Positions 27,797-37,500 of a stretch of 64,000 bases of DNA are shown here, piece after piece. The notes beneath the pieces were generated by a model, which searched no databases, was not told the origin of the DNA, and saw only the letters and a list, made by a program, of their open reading frames with translations. Location of the stretch: the NCBI GenBank assembly GCA_022484685.1, contig JAKVKY010000002.1, forward strand, positions 1 to 64,000, read 5' to 3'. Source of the DNA: Acidaminococcaceae bacterium. GTDB taxonomy: Bacteria > Bacillota > Negativicutes > Acidaminococcales > Acidaminococcaceae. The position numbers and the translations under genes were made by a program. The stretch's first letter is position 1; each line of letters begins with the position of its first letter.

Positions 27797-29296
27797 TTAA
27801 TCTTCGTACTGGTCGGGGAAAAAGACCCGTAAAACTTTTTCTTCGGTGGGTTGGCCCAGACTGTTGCCAAGCAGGAACAGGATCAGGGAGACGCCGATGC
27901 CGATGACGATCTGGTGCAGGCTGAAAACTTTAATGCCCAGGGCCATGGTCACGCAGTAGGAAAGCACGCCGCCTACCAGACACCACAGGGCGCCTTTGCT
28001 GTTGGCCTTGCTCCAGAACATACCGAAGATCATCACCCAGAAGAAGGCGGTTTCCAGACCGCCAAAGGCGAACATGTTGATCTTCCAGATCAGGTCCGGG
28101 GGCACGATGGCGATAAAGTATACGGCCAGGCCCATGATGAGGGTGCAGGCCATGCTCAGTTTCTTTACCTGGTCATTGGTCACGATCTGGCCTTTCTTAG
28201 CCTGGACGTTCATGTAGATATCTTTAATAATCGAAGAAGAGCCCGTCAACAGCAGGGAAGAAATGGTGGAAATCGTAGCCGCGATAGGACCGATGATGGT
28301 GACGCCGGCCCAGAAGGGGCTCATGCAGGCCACGATGGTCCGGGGCGTGATGTTATCCACGCTGCCGCCGTAAGCGGCGATGGAAGGATTGGTCAGGATG
28401 CCCTTGCTTAAAACGCCAATCCAGGTAGCCACCAGGGTGATGGCGCCGATCATGATGGTACCGATGATCATGGCGTTGCTGAGTGCCTTGGTATCTTTAT
28501 AGCTGATGCTGCGGACCACGGACTGGGGCAGGGCCAGGGTGCACACGCCTACTAACAGCCACTGGCTGATGTAGAGGGAGAGGGGCATCTTGCCCCGGGA
28601 TAAAGGTTCCAGCATGGCCGGATCCGCCGTCTGGATATGAGTCATGATGGCGTCATAACCGCCGGCAGTTTTTAACATGGAGTAAAAGAGGATGGCCAGA
28701 CCGGCTAACATGGCGATGGCACAGATGGCATCCGTGACCGCCACGCCTTTAAAGCCGCCGATGGTGGTGTAGACCACCACGATGAGGCCGAAGAGGGTAA
28801 GTCCGGTTAAATACGAGAAGCCGGTGACCGCCTCAAACAGTTTGGCGGCGCCGACGAACTGGGCCACCATGGTAGCGCAGAAGAAGAGCACGATGACACC
28901 GGCGGCAATATTGGCCAGGGTATCGTTCTGGTAACGGCTGCGGATCACGTCGATGACCGTCACCGCATCAATCTTGTGAGCCACCAGCGCCATCCGTTTG
29001 CCGAAGACGCCCATGACCAGGAACACTACCACCACCTGGACGATGGCCATGTACAGCCAGCCGTAGCCAATCTGCCAGGCCATACCGGGTCCGCCCACGT
29101 AGGTGCTGACGGAACTATATGTAGCCACGGTGGTCATGGCCAGGACGAAACCGCCCAGGGTCCGGCCGCCGATGAAATAATCTTTGACGAAGTTCTTGGA
29201 ACGATCGCTGGAAGAAGTTTTCTGGATATAATAACTTACATATAATAGTACCATCAGGAAGACAAAAGCTGGTAAAAGGTTGATCAGGTTATTCAT
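27797..29296 (-). CDS. panF: Sodium/pantothenate symporter
   Basis: A 499-residue membrane protein of the sodium:solute symporter (SSS) family with about 13 hydrophobic helices. The N-terminal YYIQKTSSSDRSKNFVKDYFIGGRTLGGFVLAMTT region in outline, SSVSTYVGGPGMAWQIGYGW and GGFKGVAVTDAICA are characteristic of PanF, which brings in pantothenate (vitamin B5) with Na+. The small YhdT gene overlaps its start by 8 bp, the same pairing as in many bacteria, which supports PanF over other SSS members. Confidence 0.88.
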   Translation of the reverse strand: MNNLINLLPAFVFLMVLLYVSYYIQKTSSSDRSKNFVKDYFIGGRTLGGFVLAMTTVATYSSVSTYVGGPGMAWQIGYGWLYMAIVQVVVVFLVMGVFGKRMALVAHKIDAVTVIDVIRSRYQNDTLANIAAGVIVLFFCATMVAQFVGAAKLFEAVTGFSYLTGLTLFGLIVVVYTTIGGFKGVAVTDAICAIAMLAGLAILFYSMLKTAGGYDAIMTHIQTADPAMLEPLSRGKMPLSLYISQWLLVGVCTLALPQSVVRSISYKDTKALSNAMIIGTIMIGAITLVATWIGVLSKGILTNPSIAAYGGSVDNITPRTIVACMSPFWAGVTIIGPIAATISTISSLLLTGSSSIIKDIYMNVQAKKGQIVTNDQVKKLSMACTLIMGLAVYFIAIVPPDLIWKINMFAFGGLETAFFWVMIFGMFWSKANSKGALWCLVGGVLSYCVTMALGIKVFSLHQIVIGIGVSLILFLLGNSLGQPTEEKVLRVFFPDQYED

Positions 29297-29552
29297 GATC
29301 CTTTACCTCCTTGTCAGCATCCAGGCTCATGTCCATGAAGACATAGCGAGCCAGGACCACCGCCACGATGACGGAAAAGATCCAGGTACCGACACAGCCG
29401 CCCCAAACCCAGAGCGGGGTGTGTAAAAACATGATCTGGCTGTCCGCCAGGCCGAAACCTGCCGCACACCAGAATAAAATCACGAGAATCGTGGCCACGA
29501 CGGTTGCCTTAGCTTCCCGGTTGGCCTGCTTAAACTTAGCACTTTCTTTCAT
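29289..29552 (-). CDS. yhdT: YhdT-like small membrane protein (DUF997)
   Basis: An 87-residue protein with two hydrophobic helices (ATVVATILVILFWCAAGFGL and WVWGGCVGTWIFSVIVAVVL), the form of YhdT/DUF997. Its gene nearly always lies before panF and overlaps it here by 8 bp. A helper role for the symporter is assumed but not shown. A GGAGG lies before ATG 29552. Confidence 0.8.
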   Translation of the reverse strand: MKESAKFKQANREAKATVVATILVILFWCAAGFGLADSQIMFLHTPLWVWGGCVGTWIFSVIVAVVLARYVFMDMSLDADKEVKDHE

Positions 29553-30955: not shown

Positions 30956-31087
30956 ATAATAATCAAGATAATAATCAAGATAATAATCAAGATAATAATC
31001 AAGATAATAATCAAGATAATAATCAAGATAATAATCAAGATAATAATCAAGATAATAATCAAGATAATAATCAAGATAATAATCAAG
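30956..31087. repeat. Eleven perfect tandem copies of a 12-bp unit
   Basis: ATAATAATCAAG repeated 11 times without change (132 bp), starting 99 bp after the peptidase stop. The unit is 12 bp, so every frame through it stays open and gives an Ile-Ile-Ile-Lys repeat; this is not taken as coding. The last copy runs into the left arm of the hairpin that follows. Confidence 0.97.
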
Positions 31088-31117
31088 GACCGTCTGCTGT
31101 TAGGGCAGGCGGTCCTT
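31085..31117. terminator. Hairpin at the edge of the 12-bp repeat array
   Basis: AAGGACCGtCTGC/GCAGgCGGTCCTT with a seven-base loop, a strong stem. On the minus strand it follows the first LivK-type gene and leads into GATTATTATT; it may serve both convergent genes. Confidence 0.65.
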
Positions 31118-31154
31118 GTGTGTTCTGTAGGTATTAAGTTTTCCGCAGCCGGTC

Positions 31155-32321
31155 TCAGGGTTTAACCGTGGCTTTGAAGGCCTGCTTGCCATCCTTGTAC
31201 TCAATGATGACGGCGCTCTTTACGGCGTCATGGTTTTCGTTCAGGGAGATGTTGCCGGTGACGGCGGCAAAATTCTTGGTAGCGGCAATAGCCTGGCTGA
31301 TCTTGGCCGGGGTCAGGTCGCCGGCGGTCTTGATGGCGTTAAAGAGAATGTTGGCGGCATCGTAACCTAACACGGCGCAGGCATCCGGACGTTGTTTATA
31401 TTCTTTCTGGTAAGCGTCCACGAAAGCCTTGGAAGCGGCGCTGGTATCATCGGCGCTGTAATGGTTGGTAAAGTAGGTGTTGTTCAGGGCCTTGGCGCCG
31501 GCAATTTCTACCAGCTTGGGGCTGTCCCAGCCATCGCCGCCTACGAAGGGCACGTTCAGGCCGATTTCCCGGGCCTGTTTCACGATCTTACCAATTTCTT
31601 CGTAATAACCGGGCACATAGATGACCTCGGGTTTCACAGCGGCCATCTTGGTCAGCACGGACTTAAAGTCCGTATCCTTCTGCAGATAGGATTCTTCGAT
31701 GACGATGCTGCCACCTTTGGCGGCAAAAGCTTTCTTGAAGCAGTCGGCCAGACCTTTGGAATAGTCGCTGCTGTTATCGATGAGGATGGCGGCTTTCTTG
31801 AATTTCAGGGTGTCAGCCACGAAGTTGGCGCCCACGGTGCCCTGGAAGGGGTCGATGAAGCAAACCCGGTAGGTGTTGGGCTTTACCTTGTTGCTTTTAT
31901 CGTCCACGGTGACCTTGGGATTGGTGGCGCCTACGGCCAGGAAAGGAATCTTGGAAGCTTCGCTGACGTTAGCGGCGGCAATGGCGCCGGAAGAAGCGAA
32001 CAGACCCAGCACGGCGGGAACCTTATTCTGGTTTACCAGCTTGCTCATGGCGTTGGCAGATTCAGCCGGTTCGGACTTGGTATCGGCTACCACGAACTCT
32101 ACCTGTTTTCCTAAAAGGCCGCCCTTGGCATTTAACTCCTTGGCAGCCATCTTGGCGCCGTTGGCGATGGAGTTGCCGTAAGAAGCGTTGTTACCGGTCA
32201 TCTCGGCGATGATGCCCAGCTGGATGACGTTGGCGTTTTTCTTGGGGCCGCCGCAGCCGGCTAAGAGACCCAGGGCGATGGTGGAAACCAGAGCGATGCT
32301 GACAAACTTTTTGAAATTCAT
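31155..32321 (-). CDS. LivK/urea-type amino-acid ABC binding lipoprotein under a glycine riboswitch
   Basis: A 388-residue type I periplasmic binding protein (Leu/Ile/Val, amide or urea class) with a lipoprotein signal ending LGLLAGCGG. Mature motifs include AEMTGNNASYGNSIANGAKMA, PFLAVGATNPKVT, YSKGLADCFKKAF and FFTNHYS-type TYFTNHYS. The start is ATG 32321 with GAGGAGG nine bases before it; the TTG at 32339 overlaps that site. No permease (LivH/M) or ATPase (LivG/F) is nearby. Because a glycine riboswitch governs the gene, the ligand may be glycine or a glycine-like amino acid; this is inference. A close paralogue lies next to it. Confidence 0.85.
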   Translation of the reverse strand: MNFKKFVSIALVSTIALGLLAGCGGPKKNANVIQLGIIAEMTGNNASYGNSIANGAKMAAKELNAKGGLLGKQVEFVVADTKSEPAESANAMSKLVNQNKVPAVLGLFASSGAIAAANVSEASKIPFLAVGATNPKVTVDDKSNKVKPNTYRVCFIDPFQGTVGANFVADTLKFKKAAILIDNSSDYSKGLADCFKKAFAAKGGSIVIEESYLQKDTDFKSVLTKMAAVKPEVIYVPGYYEEIGKIVKQAREIGLNVPFVGGDGWDSPKLVEIAGAKALNNTYFTNHYSADDTSAASKAFVDAYQKEYKQRPDACAVLGYDAANILFNAIKTAGDLTPAKISQAIAATKNFAAVTGNISLNENHDAVKSAVIIEYKDGKQAFKATVKP

Positions 32322-32357
32322 TTTTACGTTCCTCCTCAAAATAAACTTACATAATAA

Positions 32358-32392
32358 AATATCTCCGGCGCCTGGTCGCTCCGGAGATATGA
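32358..32392 (-). terminator. Terminator of the glycine riboswitch (expression platform)
   Basis: On the minus strand ATATCTCCGG/CCGGAGATAT, a perfect ten-base stem with a 12-nt loop, then TTTATT. It lies between the aptamers and the ribosome site of the binding-protein gene. Confidence 0.85.
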
Positions 32393-32432
32393 GAAGTCAA
32401 AGCTTATATGATACAAAGATAATATAAACTAA

Positions 32433-32595
32433 GCCGCTCTGTCCTTTTGCCTGAGAGATGAGGATTGCTCCATGCCCCTTCGGCGCCCGCTAACGAGACT
32501 CTCCAGAGTTGTGTCCCTGTACAGTCCTATCTGCGAGGCAGATACCTGAGAGTTTAACTCCTTCGGTAGACTTGGGTCTTCTCCCGTACAGTTCA
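32433..32595 (-). ncRNA. Tandem glycine riboswitch
   Basis: Two aptamers read on the minus strand. The first carries GGGAGAAGACCC, ACCGAAGGAG and CTCTCAGGTA. The second carries ACTCTGGAGAG, GCCGAAGGGGC and CTCTCAGGCAAAAGGACAGAG, all conserved glycine-aptamer elements. Glycine binding should change the fold of the terminator at 32358-32392. Whether glycine turns the gene on or off cannot be decided by reading. Confidence 0.93.
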
Positions 32596-32625
32596 TCCAC
32601 ACCGTATGCACTTTTGATGTTTTGG

Positions 32626-32654
32626 AGTATACCACAGCAACATTTTTTGTGCAA
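32626..32654 (-). promoter_or_regulatory. Promoter of the glycine riboswitch transcript
   Basis: TTGCAC (32649-32654), 17 bp, TATACT (32626-32631) on the minus strand. It is close to consensus. Confidence 0.82.
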
Positions 32655-32902: not shown

Positions 32903-34081
32903 TCAGGGATTAACAGTGGTCTTATAAGTTTGCTTGCCATCCTTGAAGGCGATGATGACGGCGCTCTTTACCGCATCGTGAGTCGCGTTCAGGGAAGTTT
33001 TGCCGGTAACGGCGGGGAAGTCCTTGGTAGCTGCCAGAGCGGCGCTGACCTTGGCACCATCGGTGCTGCCGGCACGCTTAATAGCATCAGCCATCAGTTT
33101 CGCGCCATCATAACCTAAAACGGCCGGAGCATCAGGCTTCTCGTTGTATTCTTTCTGGTAAGCGGCTACGAAAGCCTTGGATTCAGCATTGGTAGCATCC
33201 GGAGAATAGTGGTTGGTGAAATAGGTGTTTTCCAGGGCGGGGCCGCCGGCAATTTCTACCAGCTTGGGGCTATCCCAGCCGTCGCCGCCGACGAAAGCGG
33301 CCTTAATGTCCAGCTCCCGGGCCTGCTTGATGATCTTACCAACTTCTTCGTAATAACCGGGGACGTACAGGACTTCCGGGTTCAAAGTCTTAATCTTGGT
33401 CAGGATGGCTTTGAAGTCGGTATCTTTTTGCAGGTAAGCTTCTTCGCCTAAGATCTGGCCGCCCTTTTTCGTAAAGGCTTCTTTAAAGAAAGCTGCCAGG
33501 CCTTTGGAATAATCGCTGCTGTTATCAATGAGGACCACGGCCTTTTTCAGTTTCAGGGTATCCAGCACGAAGTTGGCGCCCACAGTACCTTGGAACGGAT
33601 CGATGAAGCAGACACGGAAGGTATTGGGTTTAGCCTTGCCATCCTTGTCCAGGGTAACCTTGGGGTTGGTGGCGCCGATGGCCAGGAAAGGCACCTTGGC
33701 CGATTCGCTGACGTTGCAGGCGGCGATGGCGTTGGAACTGGTAAAGATACCCATGGACAGTTTCGCCTTATCCTGGTTCAAAACTTTACTCATGGCGTTG
33801 GCGGCTTCGGCCGGTTCGGATTTATCATCGGCGATGGCCAGTTCAATCTTCTTGCCGTCCACGCCGCCCTTGTCGTTAATTTCCTTGACGGCCAGCTTCA
33901 TGCCTTTGACCACGGAGTTGCCATAGGAAGCGTTAGGACCTGTTAGTTCGCTGACCACGCCAATCTTGATGGTATTGCCGGCGTCCTTCTTGGCGCCGCC
34001 GCCACAACCGGCCATCAGCACGGACACGGATAAAAGTCCACACATTACTGCAGTTGCTAACTTACTTTTGTTCAAGAACAT
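32903..34081 (-). CDS. Second LivK-type ABC binding lipoprotein, paralogue of the riboswitch-controlled one
   Basis: A 392-residue lipoprotein binding protein with signal VSVLMAGCGGG. It shares long identical stretches with the neighbour downstream (VRVCFIDPFQGTVGANF-type core, IDNSSDYSKGLA, YVPGYYEE, FVGGDGWDSPKLVEIAG), so the two arose by tandem duplication. The likely ligands are amino acids. The start is ATG 34081 (GTG 34084 lies immediately before it) with GAGGGGG upstream. No transporter membrane genes are nearby. Its own leader contains a terminator hairpin but no glycine aptamer, so the two copies are regulated separately. Confidence 0.85.
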   Translation of the reverse strand: MFLNKSKLATAVMCGLLSVSVLMAGCGGGAKKDAGNTIKIGVVSELTGPNASYGNSVVKGMKLAVKEINDKGGVDGKKIELAIADDKSEPAEAANAMSKVLNQDKAKLSMGIFTSSNAIAACNVSESAKVPFLAIGATNPKVTLDKDGKAKPNTFRVCFIDPFQGTVGANFVLDTLKLKKAVVLIDNSSDYSKGLAAFFKEAFTKKGGQILGEEAYLQKDTDFKAILTKIKTLNPEVLYVPGYYEEVGKIIKQARELDIKAAFVGGDGWDSPKLVEIAGGPALENTYFTNHYSPDATNAESKAFVAAYQKEYNEKPDAPAVLGYDGAKLMADAIKRAGSTDGAKVSAALAATKDFPAVTGKTSLNATHDAVKSAVIIAFKDGKQTYKTTVNP

Positions 34082-34147
34082 CACAAAAACCCCCTCACAT
34101 TTTTCTCATTAACGAAGTGCGTTTCCTTAGAACGCCGGCCCTTTAAA

Positions 34148-34228
34148 CAAAAAGAGAAGCCAAATTGGGGATTTGACTTCTCTAACGTCTTTGTCGGAGA
34201 ACTGGAAACTTCTCTGCTTTTCTTCGTT
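34148..34228 (-). promoter_or_regulatory. Leader with attenuator-like terminator before the second LivK-type gene
   Basis: The predicted 147-nt leader has, on the minus strand, a first small stem GAGAA/TTCTC (34197-34215). It then has a strong stem AGAGAAG-t-CAAAT / ATTTG-g-CTTCTCT (34153-34183) followed by TTTTTG. Both stems use GAGAAG/CTTCTC, so they could exchange partners. The class of the leader is not recognised. Confidence 0.6.
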
Positions 34229-34234
34229 GGGGTT

Positions 34235-34263
34235 AGTTTACACTGAAGTTTTAAAATTTGCAA
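34235..34263 (-). promoter_or_regulatory. Promoter of the second LivK-type gene
   Basis: TTGCAA (34258-34263), 17 bp, TAAACT (34235-34240) on the minus strand. The stretch from 34264 to 34420 shows nothing further. Confidence 0.65.
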
Positions 34264-34420
34264 CAGAAAACCGCAAAAATACATAAAAAAACAATTTAAG
34301 CTTTAAAAGTGTAAACTTTTTAACGTAACTGTTTTGTGACAGTAGGCAAAAATATTTTTAACGTTGCTAAGAGGTGGACTTGTATTTTAGCAGCGGACAG
34401 GAAAGCCACCCACCCCGCCC

Positions 34421-34449
34421 TTAAAAAAAGCCGCTGTTTATGTTATGAT
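34421..34449 (+). promoter_or_regulatory. Weak promoter candidate of dnaE
   Basis: TTAAAA (34421-34426), 17 bp, TATGAT (34444-34449). Confidence 0.4.
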
Positions 34450-34553
34450 ATACATATCTATAGATATTTTAAGGAACAACTGGTACCGGCGGAGCTGCTG
34501 ACCGCGCTGCGCGTCGGGCAGGACCGGATACTTATGAAGGAACTGAGGTTACC

Positions 34554-37500
34554 ATGACTTGTACTTTTACCCATCTGCATGTCCATACCAAGTTTAGTCT
34601 GCTGGACGGCGCTTCCAAGCCGGCCGAGCTGATCCGCTATGCCAAATCCCTGGGCATGGACAGCATTGCTATGACCGACCACGGCAACATGTACGGCGCC
34701 GTGGAATTTTACGAGGAAGCGAAGAAGCAGGGCGTGCGTCCCATCATCGGCTGCGAGGTGTATCTGGCTACGCCGGACCGTTACAGCAAGGATGAGCGCA
34801 GCCACCGCTACCATTTGATTCTACTGGCGGAAAATAATACCGGCTACCAGAACCTGGTGCAGCTGGTGTCCCGGGGCTACCTGGAAGGTTTTTACCGCAA
34901 GCCCCGCATCGATAAGGAACTGCTGCGCCGCTACCACGAGGGCCTCATCTGTTTGAGCGCCTGCGTGTCCGGCGAGATCCCCGTGCATATTTTGCAGCGG
35001 GATGTGGCCGGAGCGGAAAAAGCTTTACAGGAATATCTGGACATCTTCGGCAAGGACAACTTTTTCCTGGAGATGCAGAACCATGACCTGCCGGAAGAGC
35101 AAACCGTCAACGCGGAACTGCGGCGACTGGCTAGAAAGTATGACCTGAAGCTGGTAGTGACCAACGATATCCACTACGTGCACCGGGAAGATGCGGCGGC
35201 CCAGGACGTGCTGCTGTGCATCCAGACCAATAAGACCGTGGACGACCCGGACCGCATGAAGTTTAGCAGCGCCGATTATTACTGCAAGAGCTACGAGGAG
35301 ATGCTGGCCAAGTTTCCGGACGATGCGGAAGCCCTGGCCAATACCCACGCCATCGCGGAGCGCTGTCATGTAGATTTTACTTTCGGCAAGCTGCTCTTGC
35401 CGGAGTTTCCTATTCCCAAGGAATTTGCCAACGCGGACCTGTACCTGCGCAGTTTATGCGAGGCGGCTTTGCCGGAGCGCTATGCGGACGAGCTGGCGGA
35501 ACATAAAGATGCGGCGTCCCGGGCGGCGTATCTGGGCCAGCTTAGGCAGCGGCTGGAATACGAGCTGGGCATCATCAAGACCATGGGTTACAGCAGCTAC
35601 TTTTTGATCGTGCGGGACTTTATCAACTATTGCCGCAGTGTCAAGCTGCCGGTAGGGCCGGGACGTGGCAGCGCCGCCGGCAGTATCGTGGCCTTTTTGC
35701 TGCGCATCACCAATATCGATCCTTTAAAATACGACTTGCTGTTTGAACGTTTCCTCAATCCGGAACGCATCAGCATGCCGGATATTGATACGGATTTCTG
35801 TTACCGGCGCCGGGACGAGGTGATCCAGTACGTGATCCATAAATACGGGCTGGACCATGTGGCGCTCATTATTACCTTCGGCACCCTGCAGGCCCGGGCG
35901 GCCGTGCGGGACGTGGGCCGGGCTTTAGGCCTGCCCCTGCCGGTGGTGGACAAGGTAGCCAAGGCGGTGCCCCGGGAACTGGGCATCACCCTGGACAAGG
36001 CCCTGGCCAGCAGCAACGAGCTCAAACAGATTTACGACAGCGACCCCCAGGTACAGAAGCTCATCAACATTGCCCGGACCGTAGAAGGTCTGCCCCGGAA
36101 CAGCGGCACCCATGCGGCCGGCGTCGTGATTGCGCCCAGGCCTCTGATCGACTATGTGCCTTTGCAGCTGGACCCGGATAAATCTACCTCCGGTCCGGCC
36201 ATGATCACCACCCAGTACGATAAGGACAAGGTGGAACATCTGGGCCTCTTAAAGATGGACTTCCTGGGTCTGCGCACCCTGACGGTGCTGGACGATGCCT
36301 GCAAGTTTATCCAGGCTGATACCGGTACGGTGGTGGACCTGGACAACTTAAAAGTGAACGGCCATAAGATTCCCCTGGACGACCCGGCGGTGTACAAGAT
36401 GCTCAGCGAGGGCGACACCCAGGGCGTGTTCCAGATGGAAAGCGCCGGCTTTACGAAATATTTGATGGACCTGGAGCCTACCAAGTTCACGGACCTGGTG
36501 GCCATGGTGGCCATGTACCGCCCCGGTCCCCTGGAATCCGGCATGGTGGAAGATTATATTGCCGGGAACCACGGCCACAAGACGGCGGAATCCCTCCATC
36601 CATTGATTGACCCCATCCTGGCGGAGACTAACGGCGTTATTCTCTATCAGGAACAGGTCATGCGGATCACTTCCGTGCTGGCCGGGTTCAGCCTGGGCGA
36701 AGCGGACGTGATGCGTAAGGCCATGGGCAAGAAGAAGATCGACGTGCTGGTGTCCATGAAGGAAAAATTTGTGGCCGGCGCGGCCAGGCTGCACCAGGTA
36801 CCCCGGGAGCAGAGCGAGCATATCTTCGGCCTCCTGGAAAAGTTTGCCGGTTACGGCTTTAATAAATCCCACTCGGTGGCCTATGCCCTGGTGGCTTATG
36901 AGACGGCTTATTTGAAAGTGTACTGGCCGGCGGAATTTTTTGCGGCCTTCTTGAGCAGCGTGGCGGACGTGCAGGACAAGCTCAGCTGGTACATCAGCGT
37001 CTGCCGGGGGCGGGGACTCAAGGTGCTGCCGCCGGATATTAATGCCAGCAGCTACGACTTTGCCGTGGAAAACGGCGCTATCCGTTTTGGTTTGGGCGGC
37101 GTGAAGAGCGTAGGCAGCGATTCCATCGCGGCCATCCTGCAGGCCCGGAACAAGGACGGCAGGTTTAACAGCATCCTGGATTTTTGCAAACGGGTGGAAG
37201 CCCGCTGCCAGAACAAGCGGCTGCTGGAAAATTTAATCAACTGCGGCGCCATGGATTCCCTGGGCGCCCATCGTTCCCAACTGCTGGCGGTGTACGAGGA
37301 CGCGTCCCAGATCGGGCAGCGTTACCAGAAGGATCATGCCTCGGGACAGATCGGCCTTTTCGAAGACGACTCTTTTGCCGAGGTGAACGATATTAAACTG
37401 CCGGACCTGGACGAGATGCCCCAGAGCCTGCAGCTGAAAAAGGAAAAGGAACTGCTGGGCTTCTATGTGTCCGGGCATCCCCTGGACAGTTACAAACAGG

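Follow-up and report, generated by a model that had tools for sequence, protein, structure and literature searches.

Directly upstream of a gene for a LivK-type binding lipoprotein in a member of the Acidaminococcaceae lies a tandem glycine riboswitch, and this pairing of RNA and receptor is found again in many families of the class Negativicutes. We consider it reasonably probable (about 0.6) that the leader is a transport-type tandem riboswitch, repressed by glycine through transcription termination, and that the gene it controls encodes a lipoprotein receptor for glycine and/or alanine that feeds a shared LivHMGF permease. The window, by which we mean the whole 64,000-nucleotide stretch of DNA analysed here, is located on a 122 kb contig (C2) of a 1.72 Mb assembly that is 82% complete. 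The features of the locus are as follows:

32626..32653 (-): promoter-like site with an extended -10 element (TGCACA-16-TATACT), fitting in position, from a scan that did no better than chance
32512..32596 (-): glycine aptamer 1, covariance match to RF00504, 38.4 bits
32429..32516 (-): glycine aptamer 2, covariance match to RF00504, 63.7 bits
32500..32508 (-): aptamer 2 P1 5' strand plus junction, CUCUGGAGA, the putative switching strand
32437..32441 (-): aptamer 2 P1 3' strand (CAGAG)
32359..32390 (-): intrinsic terminator, AUAUCUCCGG ... CCGGAGAUAU, then UUUUA
32387-32379 (-): terminator 5' arm, UCUCCGGAG, able to pair with the aptamer 2 P1 5' strand
32330..32337 (-): ribosome-binding site GAGGAGGA, read in the sequence, before the ATG at 32321
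31155..32321 (-): SBP1, a 388-residue Peripla_BP_6 (LivK/HAAT-type) lipoprotein, from Pfam and the open reading frame (ATG at 32321, stop at 31155)
32903..34084 (-): SBP2, a Peripla_BP_6 lipoprotein paralogue of SBP1 with the same Phe/Gly pocket, from Pfam, the open reading frame and the pocket columns
34153..34183 (-): terminator hairpin of the SBP2 leader, with no Rfam match (window 34140-34230)

The two RF00504 matches on the minus strand define tandem aptamers directly upstream of the SBP1 reading frame, and both exceed the gathering score of 32 for this family; a window-wide scan at the gathering threshold returned the stronger one only, the weaker one coming from a whole-genome search. 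The adjacent aptamers share a single expression platform, the terminator at 32390-32359. The promoter scan found 4 sites, with 3.7 expected by chance. SBP1 matches the Peripla_BP_6 profile with 219.7 bits (cut-off 31.7) and has a lipobox that reads LLAGC in the sequence, the combination of profile and lipoprotein signal that marks HAAT-type solute-binding proteins. These matches bear out a preliminary description of the locus as a glycine riboswitch in front of a LivK-type binding protein. The same description called the receptor gene lone, and here it has to be corrected, as the next gene upstream, at a distance of approximately 0.6 kb, is that of SBP2, 67% identical to SBP1. The SBP2 leader contains no glycine aptamer, and no Rfam match was obtained at E ≤ 1 in 34040-34580; its hairpin is possibly a separate attenuator. 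Hairpins resembling it are visible before homologues at two other loci (L053, L055). Elsewhere around the locus, 11 copies of a perfect 12-bp repeat, ATAATAATCAAG, occupy 30956-31087 between a peptidase gene and SBP1, with a strong hairpin right after the array (31084-31118), and an ordinary panF-type sodium/pantothenate symporter gene, preceded by a small DUF997 gene, lies at 27797-29552 on the minus strand.

Several properties of the leader point to repression by glycine. Aptamer 2 outscores aptamer 1, which is the transport-type (OFF) pattern; one study reports that aptamer 2 is the conserved one where the target is a transporter, and that the class of target predicts whether a glycine riboswitch works in the ON or the OFF direction (PMC6944388). 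The P1 5' strand of aptamer 2 (32508-32500) is complementary over 9 bp to the terminator 5' arm (p = 0.010, 200 shuffles). When the leader is cut before the terminator 3' arm, energy folding gives the antiterminator as the optimum, at -41.6 kcal/mol versus -30.9 with P1 closed, and this fold together with a terminator arm that can pair with P1 is the transport-type OFF layout. The complete leader prefers the terminator (-52.8 unconstrained, -49.5 with P1 closed and -42.0 as antiterminator); since the unliganded full leader favours termination by energy, the proposed mechanism requires kinetic switching. The arrangement suggests a kinetically controlled OFF switch, in which, when glycine is scarce, the P1 5' strand of aptamer 2 would pair with the terminator 5' arm and transcription would go on, and, when glycine is bound, P1 would close, the terminator would form and SBP1 would be turned off. 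The opposite arrangement, an ON switch through which glycine raises receptor expression, we regard as quite unlikely. Certain glycine riboswitches do have ON logic (PMC2258182), and on energy alone the preference of the unliganded leader for the terminator would suit such a switch, but the P1 3' strand is duplicated in the terminator arm, so that closure of P1 frees the terminator, and the gcvT loci surveyed below lack an arm of this kind.

The preliminary emphasis on an isolated oddity has given way to that of a recurrent unit. We sorted 65 aptamer clusters from 59 genomes of the family by their first downstream gene, and 41 of them precede a single symporter cluster (two members were tested, both sodium:alanine symporters), 10 precede gcvT, 6 precede receptors and 8 are other or unresolved. 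The six receptor loci are those of the window, G005, G046, G003 (cut by a contig end), G021 and G008 (decayed). A third aptamer match in the window genome lies on contig C13, ahead of gcvT-gcvH-gcvPA-gcvPB (GCV_T by Pfam). At one further locus (L117, in G042) a glycine aptamer was seen ahead of a Gly_transporter (PF03458) gene.

Our class sample comprised 141 genomes outside the family, 52 of which encode a homologue of at least 62% identity, and in at least 42 of these 52, spread over 22 families, a glycine aptamer precedes such a gene. At least 43 homologues outside the family have the aptamer on the same strand 130-401 bases upstream (median 219). These figures rest on 85 of the 86 homologues of at least 62% identity, one on contig C46 of G083 being left out, and on an aptamer listing that was completed for 22 genomes by further search; 20 of the 42 homologues without an aptamer were fetched and scanned. 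On the evidence of the class survey we reject chance acquisition or a one-off oddity. Forty class loci drawn non-randomly from the best-scoring aptamers comprised 18 with gcvT, 8 with a receptor, 7 with a sodium:alanine-symporter-like gene, 3 with amino-acid permeases and 4 unresolved. Over the family and class loci sampled, targets other than receptors are chiefly gcvT operons and transporters of amino acids (Na_Ala_symp, Gly_transporter, AA_permease). Among 398 genomes from the phylum, the best homologues outside the class are 50-59% identical, and inspection by eye of 8 genomes from other classes gave no listed glycine aptamer in the 700 bases before a listed homologue. In the tree SBP1 groups with the copy of G005 (100/97), and SBP1, SBP2 and copies linked to alanine racemase (alr) fall within one clade of 13 sequences (96/99). 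Contig C1 of G119 carries two consecutive receptor genes with one glycine aptamer each (97966-101091). A T-box at L063, considered as a receptor leader, was dropped, as it is downstream of that receptor and not before it.

The terminator arm that mimics P1 was then scored over these loci, with p values that carry no multiple-test correction and come from related, non-independent genomes. Within the family it is present at 5 of 6 receptor loci (p ≤ 0.01 each), the exception being the decayed G008 copy, at 19 of the 37 scorable symporter loci (of 41) and at none of the 9 scorable gcvT loci (of 10). For the class loci (p ≤ 0.05) the counts were 6/8 for receptors, 5/7 for symporters and 1/14 for gcvT, 14 of the 18 gcvT loci having been entered; this gcvT control is weak because the best-scoring aptamer was used, which is often the first of two.

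The binding pocket bears on the ligand, and its columns were mapped by sequence alignment to Atu2422 (3ip5) and other solved receptors. Atu2422 from A. tumefaciens, a HAAT receptor and a moderate sequence relative of SBP1 (phmmer E 1e-41), is reported to bind glycine, serine and GABA (PMC6819510). SBP1 shares with it the Phe at position 77 that is expected of a small-amino-acid receptor of the Atu2422 kind, and differs in having Gly for Ala 100 and Tyr for Leu 202. All 16 family homologues of at least 62% identity in which the columns are present have Phe at the F77 position and Gly at the A100 position. The class riboswitch-linked receptors have Phe in 8/8 and Gly in 7/8, and every readable riboswitch-linked receptor of the SBP1 clade carries Phe. 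The two receptors of the Liv operon on contig C6 are of other types: type 1 and its relatives have Asn/Met in 15 of 16 (Ser/Leu in one), and type 2 and its relatives combine Ala with Cys, Ser or Val (15/15), like 4gnr. Judged by alignment, in which Atu2422 is the one comparison protein with Phe at this site, the pocket residues of SBP1 would point to a small amino acid rather than a branched-chain one.

An ordinary branched-chain receptor (LivK/LivJ) that acquired its riboswitch by accident is a reading we regard as very unlikely. Among curated families SBP1 fits the branched-chain receptor subfamily best, and its solved relatives include several with the name of branched-chain receptor; yet SBP1 scores only 170.5 bits against a cut-off of 477 for NCBIfam PRK15404 (LivK/LivJ), no linked livHMGF exists on C2, the pocket columns are unlike those of both C6 Liv-operon receptors and 4gnr, and the pairing in 22 other families speaks against chance acquisition. 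Branched-chain identity is disfavoured by the pocket columns and the NCBIfam cut-off together.

Pocket and riboswitch do not always go together. Among the 20 class homologues without an aptamer that were fetched, 6 have the Phe/Gly pocket and 14 have Thr/Ala, and the six Phe/Gly receptors gave no detectable glycine aptamer even at E 0.5. Five of the loci with Phe/Gly receptors and no detectable aptamer belong to genomes of a single genus, g47 (L186-L189, L192); by eye, the upstream regions of L186-L189 contain stretches that are aptamer-like.

Glycine is the ligand suggested by the riboswitch, and alanine would fit equally well. It is an appreciable possibility, if less than an even one, that the receptor chiefly binds alanine (L or D) and that glycine is sensed by the riboswitch as a proxy for small-amino-acid sufficiency, as at Na+/alanine symporters. 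In 5 of the 11 family genomes with the SBP1 receptor type, the gene immediately before the homologue encodes alanine racemase (Pfam-confirmed in all five; in G007 the frame is split in two and the first part was the one tested), and such neighbours favour alanine as ligand, as does the fact that 41/65 family aptamer clusters precede the symporter protein cluster. Against this, no glycine aptamer accompanies the copies linked to alr, and the examined stretches around the glycine-linked copies contain no alr; the two sets could differ in ligand, though their F77/A100 columns are identical.

As to the partner of the receptor, the preliminary description had noted that no permease is nearby, and indeed contig C2 has zero matches to PF02653 (LivH/LivM). 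Eight such matches occur in the genome, on contigs C3, C4, C6, C35 and C50. Complete sets lie on C6, where LivHMGF is accompanied by two receptors (54% and 51% identical to SBP1), and on C35, where LivKHMGF includes one receptor (42% identical); the LivG and LivF genes on both contigs were named by eye. The description's proposal of a borrowed permease thus stands as far as permeases encoded elsewhere are concerned, and for the borrowing itself it is relatives with a single LivHM pair that make it the simplest reading. Exactly one PF02653 pair is present in G005 (100% complete), G075 and G089 (99%), all of which possess the riboswitch-receptor unit; G089 is a single contig with at least five receptor homologues alongside its one pair, and in G005 and G089 the pair adjoins another receptor. 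One LivHM pair in near-complete genomes makes a shared permease the simplest reading, and SBP1 would likewise pass its ligand to a LivHMGF encoded elsewhere and common to other receptors. No permease was seen in the 8 fetched class receptor loci (approximately 3 kb each, with short flanks). Its absence is not universal: in G021 (L088) a tandem glycine riboswitch is followed by a distant receptor and then by LivH and LivM, which indicates that this riboswitch can govern a whole ABC importer. In G008 (L123) the same riboswitch-receptor-LivH-LivM order is seen, broken into short frames.

We also weighed whether the receptor has no transport role and serves a chemoreceptor, a sensor kinase or an envelope ligand sink, which we think unlikely. 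Consistent with such a role are the lack of a permease gene nearby, the report that some solute-binding proteins stimulate receptors (PMC9602780), and a dCache-HAMP chemoreceptor-like gene that follows the riboswitch-linked receptor of G089 (L168, 1897-3301), where signalling is possible. However, repression by glycine in common with symporters and permeases fits uptake, and the neighbouring genes tested at the other class receptor loci have no relation to one another (rubrerythrin, a LysR regulator, an acyltransferase-like protein, a HAD hydrolase).

Although speculative, a wider picture can be drawn for the Negativicutes, in which one LivHMGF would act as a shared port whose imports are chosen by RNA switches on separate receptor genes, the glycine riboswitch withdrawing the glycine/alanine receptor and an unclassified hairpin withdrawing a paralogue with the Thr/Ala pocket; we hold this view only tentatively. 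Most of the 14 Thr/Ala-pocket leaders (L191, L193-L205) have a long, stable, terminator-like hairpin, often of 15-20 bp, just past the promoter, frequently with a motif like GCAANGANGCTT ahead of it, which a simple motif search located in 11/14. These leaders gave no Rfam match at E 0.5, and the hairpin is possibly an unreported attenuator. Upstream of five of these receptors (L194, L199, L200, L203, L204) is an aldehyde-dehydrogenase gene (Pfam Aldedh, tested for L200 only), which presumably resembles pyrroline-5-carboxylate dehydrogenase; this resemblance hints at a proline-related ligand for the Thr/Ala-pocket receptors.

Surveys of glycine-riboswitch regulons describe glycine metabolism, serine metabolism and glycine transporters or symporters as targets (PMC3766115, PMC2211319, PMC6944388, PMC12452182, PMC2258182), and the portion shown of the table of taxa in PMC3766115 has no Negativicutes group. 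Our literature search, which ran outside supplements and most subscription papers, returned no report of such a binding protein preceded by a glycine riboswitch. The riboswitch, the receptor family and the principle of receptor sharing are already known, and what is new is their class-wide combination. Glycine riboswitches are known from operons for glycine cleavage and from secondary transporters; in this case the target across a class is a receptor component by itself, and the riboswitch link suggests what ligand a widespread receptor might bind, in a family that usually goes by the branched-chain name. The system also bears on whether cells use RNA-level control to choose what a shared ABC importer carries, for which the single-permease species offer a direct test.

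Besides Atu2422, three known systems are close to the one proposed here. The riboswitches of Na+/alanine symporters likewise have two aptamers of which aptamer 2 is better conserved, a terminator arm that mimics P1 and a gene for small-amino-acid uptake; their target is a complete transporter, whereas here it is a permease-less ABC binding protein. The riboswitch of the gcvT operon on C13 in the same genome has its aptamer class in common with the SBP1 leader, but it has another P1 sequence, one detected aptamer, no P1-mimicking arm that we could find, and a degradative operon as its target. In E. coli, LivJ and LivK use one common LivHMGF. The arrangement of several HAAT receptors per LivHMGF, with at least one receptor transcribed separately, is similar to that envisaged for SBP1, which is set apart from LivJ and LivK by control through a glycine riboswitch and by a pocket signature suggestive of a smaller ligand.
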